Of a stretch of DNA of 64,000 nt, positions 2,768 to 41,913 are shown piece after piece. How positions within the stretch are numbered: the first letter of the stretch is position 1; every line of letters starts with the position of its first letter. The translations under genes were made by a program, and so were the position numbers. Source of the stretch: Bacteroides sp. (GTDB lineage Bacteria; Bacteroidota; Bacteroidia; Bacteroidales; Bacteroidaceae); contig JAJQAY010000039.1 in the NCBI GenBank assembly GCA_021203515.1, positions 16,570 to 80,569 of the forward strand, given 5' to 3'. Below the pieces are notes generated by a model that was given only the letters and a program-made list of their open reading frames with translations, did not search any database and was not told the origin of the DNA.

Positions 2768-3265
2768 ATGAATATGAAAAAAAACTATTTCTTTACCATT
2801 CTTGCAGCTATGCTGCTGGCGGTAACAGGGCTTCACGCGCAGAGTAACCCTGCTTCCACTCCTGCGCATCTCGAAGGTATCTGGCAGTTGTGTCATTATG
2901 TATCCGAAAATCAGGATGTTCCCGGAATGTTGAAACCGAGTAATACATTCAAGGTGTTGAGCGATGACGGGCGTATCGTTAATTTCACGATTATTCCCGG
3001 TTCGGATGCCATCATTACCGGATATGGCACGTATCGGCAGATCTCAGACCATACCTATAAGGAAAGCATCGAGAAAAATATCCACCTGCCCATGCTGGAT
3101 AATAAGGATAACATCCTTGAATTTGAAATGGGTGAAGGCGGAGTGATGTATTTGAAATATTTTATTTCCAAAGATTTGAACGGAAATGAACTGAACACCT
3201 GGTTCCATGAAACGTGGAAAAGGGTAGGTATGCCGGATAAATTCCCCGGAGACATCATTCGATAA
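2768..3265 (+). CDS. Secreted DUF4488-like protein
   Basis: A 165-aa protein with an N-terminal signal peptide ([23 protein letters not shown]; cleavage likely after HAQ). The mature part opens with [13 protein letters not shown] and contains [11 protein letters not shown] and [11 protein letters not shown]. This is the layout of DUF4488 and lipocalin-like Bacteroides periplasmic proteins, where GxW near the N-terminus starts a small beta barrel. Function is unknown. It stands alone between the asnS terminator and the ribosomal operon promoter. Translation could begin at 2768 or at the second ATG at 2774. Confidence 0.75.
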
Positions 3266-3285
3266 CAGAAGCCTTTACAGGGATA

Positions 3286-3381
3286 AAGTATTAGGTATTA
3301 GGTATTAAGTATTAGGTGTTAAGCTGCGCTATAATCTGCATAGCTAATACCTAATACTTAATGCCTAATACCTAATGCTTT
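3286..3381. repeat. Low-complexity inverted repeat (TTAGGTATTAAGTATT type)
   Basis: The left arm (about 3286-3324) is built of TATTAGG/TATTAAG units. It pairs with the right arm (about 3342-3381), built of CCTAATACTTAAT units, around a loop of about 17 nt. It could act as a terminator for the upstream gene. It is one of three intergenic palindrome types in this window. Confidence 0.8.
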
Positions 3382-3426
3382 GTTGTATATTAGTAGCAGG
3401 GTAGCTTTCAAAAAAAGAAGAAAACG

Positions 3427-3457
3427 TTTGCCAGTTATAAGAAAATCCGTACCTTTG
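3427..3457 (+). promoter_or_regulatory. Promoter of the ribosomal protein operon
   Basis: TTTG at 3427-3430, a 19-bp spacer, then TACCTTTG at 3450-3457 form a full match to the Bacteroidetes consensus. It implies a 5' leader of about 120 nt before rplM. It is the best promoter in the window. Confidence 0.85.
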
Positions 3458-3582
3458 CAAGCCGATTATTATCTCATAAGGATAAGCATTTAATTCATAG
3501 CGAGTTAATCTTCCAATGTCCGGGATGATTGGCTTGTGGTGAAGAGAAGCATTTAGTAGTAACATTTAAAAAACAATTAAGA

Positions 3583-4044
3583 GTGGATACTTTAAGTTAC
3601 AAGACCATTTCTGCAAACAAAGCTACAGTAACCAAAGAATGGGTTATTGTTGACGCCACAGACCAAGTATTAGGTCGTCTGGGCGCAAAAGTTGCGAAAC
3701 TGTTGAGAGGGAAGTATAAACCAAACTTTACCCCTCACGTTGATTGTGGCGATAATGTAATCATTATCAATGCCGACAAAGTAAAATTAACCGGTAACAA
3801 ATGGAATGACAAGGTATATCTGTCATATACAGGTTATCCCGGCGGTCAGAGAGAAATCACTCCTGCTCGTTTGCAGGCAAAACCGAACGGTGATGATAGG
3901 TTGCTGAGAAAAGTAGTAAAGGGTATGCTGCCTAAGAACAAATTGGGCGCACAATTGCTGGGTAATATGTATGTATATGCCGGCAGCGAGCACAAACATG
4001 AAGCTCAGAGCCCGAAAATGATTGATATTAACGCACTTAAATAA
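3583..4044 (+). CDS. rplM: 50S ribosomal protein L13
   Basis: Large-subunit protein. The ORF track starts at 3529, but Bacteroides L13 begins (M)DTLSYKTISANKATVTKEW. The codon giving that start is GTG at 3583, preceded by AATTAAGA, and it makes a 153-aa protein of the usual length. Core segments WVIVDATDQVLGRLGAKVA and FTPHVDCGDNVIIINADKV are clear. rpsI follows after 6 bp, the conserved rplM-rpsI pair. Confidence 0.96.
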   Translation: MDTLSYKTISANKATVTKEWVIVDATDQVLGRLGAKVAKLLRGKYKPNFTPHVDCGDNVIIINADKVKLTGNKWNDKVYLSYTGYPGGQREITPARLQAKPNGDDRLLRKVVKGMLPKNKLGAQLLGNMYVYAGSEHKHEAQSPKMIDINALK

Positions 4045-4050
4045 GAGATA

Positions 4051-4437
4051 ATGGAAGTAGTAAATGCATTAGGCAGACGTAAACGTGCAATTGTGCGCAT
4101 TTTCGTAAGCGAAGGTACAGGAAAGATTACTATTAACAAGAGAGACCTCGCAGAGTACTTTCCATCAAGCATTCTTCAGTATGTAGTTAAACAACCGTTG
4201 AACAAGCTGGGTGTTGCTGAAAAGTATGACATCAAGGTTAACCTCTGCGGTGGTGGTTTCACCGGTCAGTCTCAGGCTTTGCGTTTAGCTATCGCCCGTG
4301 CACTGGTGAAGATGAATGCTGAAGATAAAGCTGCTCTCCGCGCTGAAGGCTTCATGACTCGTGACCCGCGTTCTGTTGAACGTAAGAAACCGGGACAGCC
4401 GAAAGCACGTCGTAGATTCCAGTTCAGTAAACGTTAA
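4051..4437 (+). CDS. rpsI: 30S ribosomal protein S9
   Basis: Small-subunit protein of 128 aa whose C-terminal tail reaches the P-site tRNA. The start MEVVNALGRRKRAIVRIFV, the middle GGGFTGQSQALRLAIARAL and the basic C-terminus KPGQPKARRRFQFSKR are all present and end in the typical KR. It is co-transcribed with rplM. A 179-bp gap before rpsB holds a run of CTCAACT units related to the palindrome downstream of rpsB. Confidence 0.98.
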   Translation: MEVVNALGRRKRAIVRIFVSEGTGKITINKRDLAEYFPSSILQYVVKQPLNKLGVAEKYDIKVNLCGGGFTGQSQALRLAIARALVKMNAEDKAALRAEGFMTRDPRSVERKKPGQPKARRRFQFSKR

Positions 4438-4616
4438 GAGTTGCAGAAGCGTTGGAGCGGACAAGTTGCTTAATTCTCAACTTATAACTCTCAACTCTCA
4501 ACTGAAAAAGCGTTTAGCATCTAAACTACCGGGACTCTTCATCTGGATAGACTGCCCGGCGGTTGGTTTAGAAAAAAAACAAAAAAGAAAGTAAACGATT
4601 TAAAGATTAAAACAAA

Positions 4617-5453
4617 ATGTCAAGAATAAATTTTGATACATTATTGGAAGCCGGCTGTCACTTCGGTCACTTGAAAAGAAAGTGGAACCCAGCTATGGCT
4701 CCTTACATCTTCATGGAGCGCAATGGTATTCATATCATTGACCTCAACAAGACGGTTGCTAAAATTGACGAAGCTGCTGAAGCTTTGAAGCAAATCGCTA
4801 AATCAGGAAAGAAAGTCCTGTTTGTTGCTACTAAAAAACAAGCTAAGCAGGTGGTTGCCGAAAAGGCTGCATCTGTAAATATGCCTTATGTAATCGAGCG
4901 CTGGCCGGGTGGTATGTTGACTAACTTCCCGACAATCCGTAAGGCCGTTAAGAAAATGGCTACTATCGACAAGTTGACTAACGATGGTACTTACTCTAAC
5001 CTCTCTAAGAGAGAAATTCTGCAAATCTCTCGTCAACGTGCCAAATTGGACAAGACTTTGGGTTCTATTGCTGACCTGACCCGTCTGCCGTCTGCTTTGT
5101 TCGTAATCGACGTAATGAAAGAAAATATTGCAGTTCGCGAAGCTAACCGTTTGGGTATTCCGGTGTTCGGTATCGTTGATACGAACTCTGACCCCTCAGA
5201 CATCGACTTCGTAATCCCGGCAAATGACGATGCTACCAAGTCAATAGAAGTTATTTTGGATGCTTGCTGCGCTGCTATGCAGGAAGGTCTGGAAGAACGC
5301 AAGGCTGAAAAGGTAGACATGGAGGCTGCCGGTGAAGCTCCTGCCAACAAAGGCAAGAAGAAAGCTACAAAAGCAAGACTTGACAAATCCGACGAGGAAG
5401 CAATCAACGCAGCCAAAGCTGCTGCTTTCATGAAGGAAGACGAAGAGGCTTAA
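4617..5453 (+). CDS. rpsB: 30S ribosomal protein S2
   Basis: Small-subunit protein of 278 aa. The start is MSRINFDTLLEAGCHFGHLK. The conserved blocks NGIHIIDLNKT, WPGGMLTNFPTIRK and GIPVFGIVDTNSDPS are present. After about residue 225 comes an Ala/Lys/Glu-rich charged tail (NKGKKKATKARL) that is longer than in E. coli S2. Bacteroides S2 is known to carry such tails. tsf follows, as in most bacteria. Confidence 0.98.
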   Translation: MSRINFDTLLEAGCHFGHLKRKWNPAMAPYIFMERNGIHIIDLNKTVAKIDEAAEALKQIAKSGKKVLFVATKKQAKQVVAEKAASVNMPYVIERWPGGMLTNFPTIRKAVKKMATIDKLTNDGTYSNLSKREILQISRQRAKLDKTLGSIADLTRLPSALFVIDVMKENIAVREANRLGIPVFGIVDTNSDPSDIDFVIPANDDATKSIEVILDACCAAMQEGLEERKAEKVDMEAAGEAPANKGKKKATKARLDKSDEEAINAAKAAAFMKEDEEA

Positions 5454-41008: not shown

Positions 41009-41302
41009 TTACTTCAAAAGTCCTAAGCGAATTTTAATGCCTACCAAGTATAATTTCATTTTGCAGCGTATGCGGCGTAAGTGTCGCAATCGATAAGATT
41101 TGGCAGTTATCCGGAAAAGCATATTCCCGTATAAACAGCAGGTACATTCGAGGGTGTCTTTTGAAACGTTGCGCATCTCTTCAAACACAATCTCAATAGG
41201 CACATATTCATCTATAAAAGCGATAAAATCATCGGTTTCTTCCAGTTTACGTAACAAGCTGCAGGAACTGGCACAGTAGGGGCAATTGGGTTTTGGCTTC
41301 AT
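41009..41302 (-). CDS. Small Cys-rich hypothetical protein
   Basis: A 97-aa protein, not recognised. The N-terminus has CPYCASSCSLL and the middle ECTCCLYGNML, so two cysteine clusters could bind a metal. The acidic stretch LEETDDFIAFIDEYVPIEIV lies between them, and the C-terminal 35 residues are strongly basic (YRLRHLRRIRCKMKLYL). No signal peptide. The length, start and base use look gene-like, but there is no homology support. It sits next to the structured repeat block. Confidence 0.5.
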   Translation of the reverse strand: MKPKPNCPYCASSCSLLRKLEETDDFIAFIDEYVPIEIVFEEMRNVSKDTLECTCCLYGNMLFRITAKSYRLRHLRRIRCKMKLYLVGIKIRLGLLK

Positions 41303-41351
41303 AGTTTTGAATATTAAGCTATTACTTTATTCCCATTTGTCCATAAAAAGA

Positions 41352-41435
41352 GGCGTGGAAACTATTGTTACTATGCACTCTTGTTAGGCTCTGGTTAGGA
41401 CCGTTCAGGAACATAATAAGCAATAGCTCCACGCC
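41352..41435 (-). ncRNA. Structured inverted-repeat element, copy A
   Basis: Read on the minus strand, GGCGTGGAGCTATTG pairs with CAATAGTTTCCACGCC at the base, and CTTATTATG pairs with the CATAGTAA segment above it. The apical part reads TTCCT, a short stem around AACCA, then AACAAGAGT. Copy B nearby has the same layout with different stem bases. Whether it is transcribed is unknown. Confidence 0.5.
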
Positions 41436-41466
41436 AAAATGTATATAACAAGATTATATGCAATTT

Positions 41467-41550
41467 GGACGTGGAGACTCTCACTTATTATTCGTTCCTA
41501 AAAGTCAACCAGACTTCAACAAGAGTACGAATAATAAAATGATTCTCTCC
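41467..41550 (+). ncRNA. Structured inverted-repeat element, copy B
   Basis: TTATTATTCGT pairs perfectly with ACGAATAATAA. Inside, AAGTC-AACCA-GACTT forms a small hairpin flanked by TTCCT and AACAAGAGT, all shared with copy A. The base has GGAGA against TCTCC. Copies A and B are inverted around a 31-nt AT-rich spacer, so the whole 41352-41550 block is also one large imperfect palindrome. Confidence 0.5.
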
Positions 41551-41675: not shown

Positions 41676-41913
41676 GTTAAAGAACATCTCACAATTTACG
41701 CCCTGTTTTGAGTTAAATAGGCTGAAAGCCTATTATCTTATAGCCCAGGGCAACGCCCTGGGTATATATGTCATCTATCTGTCTTTGCGCCTTGAAAGGG
41801 CAAAAGCCCGTATTTATCTTATGCCCTTTCAGGGCGTAAATAGTGGGGCGTTCTTTAACCCAGGGCGTTGCCCTGGGCTGTAAGATAAAAGCCTTTCAGG
41901 CTTAGTTTAAAAT
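41676..41913. repeat. Interleaved double inverted repeat (CCCAGGGCAACGCCCTGGG type)
   Basis: Arm 1 (41676-41705, GTTAAAGAAC...TTTACGCCCTG) pairs with 41830-41859. Arm 2 (about 41711-41763, GGCTGAAAGCC...CCCAGGGCAACGCCCTGGG) pairs with about 41858-41913. The order is 1-2-1'-2', so the two pairings interlock. Arm 2 also folds on itself as CCCAGGGC/GCCCTGGG. It resembles REP/MITE-like dispersed elements. No gene lies between 41303 and 42123. Confidence 0.85.

Follow-up and report, generated by a model that had tools for sequence, protein, structure and literature searches.

A two-hairpin 5' leader with a locus-specific loop code in Bacteroidia, a probable transcription attenuator

In transcription attenuators of the trp type, four leader segments pair either as 1:2 and 3:4 or as 2:3. 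We describe here a leader from a 64,000-nt stretch of a Bacteroides sp. genome (contig JAJQAY010000039.1; the window) that resembles them, as it lies between a promoter and a gene and carries a terminator hairpin with a U-run, which an alternative pairing would prevent. It differs from them in that each of its folds takes in two whole hairpins, the loops of which are complementary to one another, and in that every locus has loops of its own; neither a leader peptide nor a ligand pocket was recognised, and the regulation is predicted. Kissing-loop and paranemic RNA pairings, exemplified by the ColE1 RNAI/RNAII loops, likewise join two hairpins through complementary apical loops of about 7 nt, whereas the leader pairs within one RNA and both of its internal-loop strands are complementary as well. 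The FopS/GibS sRNAs (Rfam RF04319; PMC11697453) are, like the leaders, a multicopy RNA family of the same genus with Bacteroides-type promoters. FopS, however, are trans-acting sRNAs of about 65-70 nt with a shared seed (PMC11697453), while the leaders have no RF04319 match and their loops are locus-specific. A single RF04319 match, at 3829-3895 of locus L106, is a separate FopS sRNA about 0.7 kb from a leader. Bacteroides invertible promoters share with this locus the inverted repeats near a promoter; an invertible promoter was rejected, given that the main promoter lies outside the repeats and the arms are diverged and type-specific, not near-identical. A ligand-binding riboswitch was rejected too, as there is no conserved unpaired aptamer core and the internal loops are the most variable part.

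Layout of the leader unit

The first-pass annotation of the window had placed here two diverged, inverted copies of one structured element of about 84 nt. Both hairpins are present, A at 41435-41352 on the minus strand and B at 41472-41550, and both beat dinucleotide shuffles in folding by a wide margin (z -6.3 for A and -4.5 for B). As had been noted, the two differ in stem bases without loss of pairing, and the segments TTCCT, AACCA and AACAAGAGT match. The 4.3-Mb genome has exactly two occurrences of the shared loop pattern GTTCCT..AACCA..AACAAGAGT, both at this locus, and none of its reversed control. A hairpin stem looks much the same on either strand; promoter and gene, on the other hand, place both hairpins in one predicted minus-strand transcript, and B is therefore read as its reverse complement, rcB. 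Read on one strand, the loops that A and B share are complementary to each other. What we find is thus one leader RNA with two hairpins and complementary loops, in place of two copies of one element, and its extent of about 41602-41302 includes both hairpins and exceeds copies of about 84 nt. A bridge-RNA-like guide RNA, which the matched loops had suggested, was discarded, because with both hairpins on one strand the loops are complementary.

Promoter and same-strand gene define the unit as promoter, P0 hairpin, rcB, spacer hairpin, A, U-run and gene, all on the minus strand. It opens with the Bacteroides-type promoter element TATCTTTG (TAnnTTTG) at 41602-41595, assigned from its sequence, with no evident TTG at -33 and a predicted transcript start at about 41590. 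At its 5' end the leader has P0 (41564..41590), a small hairpin with an 11-bp stem that is also the first helix of the minimum free energy (MFE) structure. Hairpin rcB (41550-41472; segments 1 and 2) folds alone at -34.6 kcal/mol. The spacer hairpin GCATATAATCTTGTTATATACA (41440..41462) is a palindrome in the sequence, and the equivalent helix covaries in a related subfamily. Hairpin A (41435-41352; segments 3 and 4), which is terminator-like, folds alone at -36.3 kcal/mol and is followed in the sequence by the U-run TCTTTTT (41345..41351). Three loop segments of A have partners in rcB: the 5' strand of the internal loop, GTTCCT (41407..41412), pairs with AGGAAC (41499-41494); the apical loop AACCAGA (41390..41396) pairs with TCTGGTT (41513-41507); and the 3' strand of the internal loop, AACAAGAGT (41377..41385), pairs with ACTCTTGTT (41526-41518). 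All three pairs also covary across loci. The downstream gene (41009..41302, ATG at 41302) encodes a cysteine-rich protein of 97 aa that belongs to no Pfam or NCBIfam family and resembles, by eye, 74-aa proteins behind other leader copies (MNEPLTCSCQMKTDLE...). Adjoining the leader is a separate repeat family: palindromic repeats GCCCAGGGCAACGCCCTGGG at 41718-41762 and 41859-41903, with a weak Acido-Lenti-1 score below cut-off, and related CCCTTTCAGGGCG units nearby.

The same order recurs elsewhere. Once the loci are all oriented by hairpin A, 66 of 74 distinct ones carry an exact TAnnTTTG on A's strand and upstream of B at the same distance, for the most part from -155 to -190 relative to A, other positions being nearly empty; a smaller set lies inside the spacer palindrome of some loci, and a few loci have no promoter motif. 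An ATG open reading frame of at least 60 aa starts within 450 nt after A in 76 of 81 loci, and a gene start lies within 80 nt of A in 52 of 81, both counted on A's strand alone. At least five T in the 8 nt after A are found in 85% of loci and in 8% of control positions, and the mean local energy of A over loci is -36 kcal/mol. The downstream genes encode small cysteine-rich proteins (as at the source locus), DDDDD-lipoproteins, DUF1266 proteins, PDZ/DUF4136 proteins and others; they do not point to a signal, having no common function that would name one.

Some of these neighbourhoods merit mention in their own right. At L077, L078, L080, L089, L109, L115, L122 and others, the leader is common to paralogous lipoproteins whose signal peptides end in ACSDDDDD or ACGDDDD and whose mature parts differ. 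The second leader of the source genome (L074; G000:C77:2667-2763) precedes a lipoprotein with collagen-like GKDGxxG repeats, and at L123 (264-1788) and L036 (1-486) leaders with small genes adjoin rRNA/tRNA operons.

Distribution and loop code of the family

The exact loop pattern of the source locus is absent from 40 relatives outside the source genome because the loops are locus-specific. By blastn with the 241-bp region, matches were found in 43 of 151 congeneric genomes (genus as assigned in the genome collection) at E 0.1, about fifteen of them strong. Covariance models R1 (hairpin A) and R2 (hairpin B), whose E-values are rough, were built from the copies found in this way; they match the source hairpins with 71.4 bits (A) and 80.3 bits (rcB). 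R1 matches 118 of 160 congeneric genomes, including 76 of the 94 good ones, with 1-22 copies each and two in the source genome. At 1e-5, 64 of 344 genomes and 48 of 194 genera in an order-wide sample match, as do 19 of 346 genomes in a phylum-wide sample, nearly all of the same class (Bacteroidia), in which further families are represented. Bacteroides faecis, B. cellulosilyticus, B. congonensis, Phocaeicola intestinalis, Parabacteroides massiliensis and Prevotella histicola are among the named holders. In the R1 and R2 searches, nearly all A hairpins are accompanied by their B about 30 nt away on the other strand, and the double-hairpin layout with matching loops is kept in most of the distant matches that could be oriented; in a few distant matches, loop matching is no better than background. 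Searches with covariance models, an approach that had been proposed, returned more than 100 further copies with compensatory changes and very strong covariation. The element is conserved and structured, and very probably acts as RNA, as first suggested.

That its family had not been recognised is borne out. Among 4227 Rfam models, a set outside which lie GUCCY-hairpin and Bacteroides-2, with no Rfam accession in PMC2864571, none exceeded its gathering threshold on the leader in the source window and 20 loci, and a relaxed search placed none on the leader either. No description of the leader was found in the literature searched, and an earlier mention elsewhere is possible; the family, spread across the class Bacteroidia and absent from Rfam, looks undescribed. 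Blastn against phage and plasmid sequences gave no matches. A pattern scan of viral contigs (20 fixed bases, two gaps) was discarded, with 15 matches against about 13 expected by chance, and miRNA matches, far below cut-offs, were taken as chance.

The unpaired segments had been called conserved. This holds between A and B of one locus; between loci they are hypervariable. Across loci, the entropy of the internal-loop columns is 1.6-2.0 bits, near maximal, and most stem columns are nearly fixed. The core of A scores on average 33.6 against its own B and 17.2 against the B of other loci; its own B ranks best in 59 of 80 loci and among the top three in 72, and many exceptions are near-identical relatives of the same leader in other genomes. 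In our main alignment (A8), which holds 34 sequences of one subfamily and was made with MAFFT without any structure, 98.1% of the cells in cross-loop pairs are standard, compared with 69.6% after shuffling, and double changes number 216 against 64, pair counts that depend on the alignments. The covariation score of the cross-loop pairs is 0.714, against 0.178 +- 0.013 when shuffled, and sliding the alignment by one column destroys it (0.05-0.12). The 34 loci have 31 distinct loop codes. The predicted code is therefore private to nearly every locus, with pairing kept within the locus.

Two competing folds

Comparison between loci points to two conserved, competing folds, in which either the local hairpins form, A being terminator-like, or rcB pairs with A. 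Local hairpin A has double changes at 21 of 27 pairs across 76 distinct loci, with 148 double-change cells against 27 shuffled, in an alignment that was fitted to the model and so leans towards structure. The spacer hairpin covaries too, in the related subfamily. Per locus, 43.7 of 60.3 locally paired bases of A can also pair across. In the 34-sequence subfamily, the cross stems are 95.6% paired without double changes, and neither they nor most local stems vary much. This is as expected if stem bases have two partners; an absence of variation is no proof, and within this subfamily stem switching has little direct covariation support. Watson-Crick pairs make up 74% of the cross stems against 96% of the local stems; wobble pairing thus destabilises the cross form. 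Each arm has apical stems of its own that lack complementarity to those of the other (0 of 34 at two positions), which favours local folding and speaks against an inverted repeat that has simply been homogenised.

In 91 of 100 loci, the whole-leader MFE structure has rcB paired with A, on average 11.5 kcal/mol better than the halves folded separately; a few loci have no such extended MFE fold. When rcB was swapped between loci, this fold appeared in 4.7%, with a gain of 2.1 kcal/mol. When growing transcripts are folded, cross pairing is favoured from about 35 nt into A, before the 3' (terminator) arm of A exists; which fold results must then be a matter of kinetics or of some factor holding rcB. 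In the extended fold the U-run is only partly paired (2.8 of 8 nt). A count of closed quartets from MFE structures (5.4 per locus) was set aside as evidence. By comparison across loci, the promoter, the structure, the U-run, the gene order and the covariation, both within A and between the loops, are established.

Probable attenuation and its alternatives

How would such a leader act? We consider that this 5' mRNA leader of about 250 nt is probably a transcription attenuator with two competing folds and a private loop code at each locus. It has the same-strand upstream promoter (66/74), the terminator hairpin with U-run before the gene and conserved, mutually exclusive pairing, the cross stems being compatible but nearly invariant. 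RNA production, termination and read-through are steps that we infer. Segments 1 and 2 would form rcB, and segments 3 and 4 would form A, which with its U-run would be an intrinsic terminator that stops RNA polymerase before the gene. As long as rcB stays folded, A would terminate; when A invades rcB, the two would pair along their length (segments 2:3 and 1:4, internal-loop strands and apical loops), A could no longer form and the gene would be read. The balance might be tipped by kinetics or by a factor holding rcB. Stem bases, which must suit two partners, would be conserved, whereas loop bases, partnered only in the other hairpin, could drift freely if both sides change together; such coupled drift would give nearly every locus its private code. 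Several points count against attenuation: the U-run is, in the modelled extended fold, only partly paired, stem switching has little direct covariation behind it within the 34-sequence subfamily, the downstream genes have no common function naming a signal, and a few loci are without the promoter motif or the extended MFE fold. If it is true, one unannotated RNA family would control many genes throughout a class dominant in the human gut, among them small secreted lipoproteins, DUF1266 proteins and small cysteine-rich proteins, mostly of unknown function. The family would also allow two-state RNA folding to be tested cleanly by comparison, as two-partner stems are frozen and one-partner loops drift, and would supply work on gut Bacteroides with naturally occurring leader switches that are orthogonal to one another.

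A tentative reading of the paired state is a paranemic, kissing double hairpin, in which all stems are kept and the hairpins are zipped through both internal-loop strands and the apical loop; the conserved apical stems, which do not pair across, fit it. Were it true, a genome would hold as many as about twenty intramolecular lock-and-key leaders, orthogonal to one another and each with a code of roughly 22 bases, a new RNA architecture with natural orthogonality between paralogous leaders. It is rather unlikely that the rcB:A hairpin, or a loop-kissed double hairpin, is permanent and serves stability or processing with no terminator switch, for instance as an RNase III substrate or as protection of the mRNA 5' end. 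The rcB:A fold, the MFE in those 91 of 100 loci, does arise early as the modelled transcript grows, yet a plain long hairpin would need neither the conservation and separate covariation of A nor its arm-specific apical stems nor the U-run behind it.

Mutational homogenisation, by which template switching between the arms would match the loops without selection for their pairing, only the terminator and the hairpin stems mattering, is an improbable account. The element is an imperfect inverted repeat, and template switching is reported to create and maintain RNA hairpins with compensatory changes (PMC8794818); but the apical stems, situated between matched loop strands, are arm-specific and non-complementary, so that the process would need to convert the two flanks and leave the middle untouched at nearly every locus in a whole class. 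We regard as slightly less probable still a free small RNA of about 250 nt that reaches from promoter to U-run and either works in trans or forms dimers via self-complementary loops, the gene being incidental. Its own promoter and terminator-like end would suit it, and multicopy sRNA families such as FopS are known in Bacteroides (PMC11697453), whereas the gene starts so close behind A (52/81 within 80 nt) and the near-absence of shared codes (31 distinct ones in 34 loci), which does not suit a shared trans target, speak against it. Least probable, and very unlikely, is an element acting as DNA: a mobile element end, a REP/BIME-like repeat or an invertible promoter. Copies are multiple and dispersed, their hairpins are in inverted arrangement and some have common flanks; however, the main promoter lies outside the hairpins, a same-strand gene follows most loci, the arms are diverged and type-specific, and no transposase is a regular neighbour among the loci examined. 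The earlier suggestions of a hairpin recognised as single-stranded DNA and of a transposon end thus find no support, an upstream promoter and a downstream same-strand gene being the rule and no transposase accompanying the loci in general. The sole transposase seen, by eye of the IS110 family, interrupts the element: at L087 (G124:C1:1617300-1623300), an insert of about 1.67 kb (3031-4696) in the spacer hairpin splits the two hairpins, a natural disruption of the leader.
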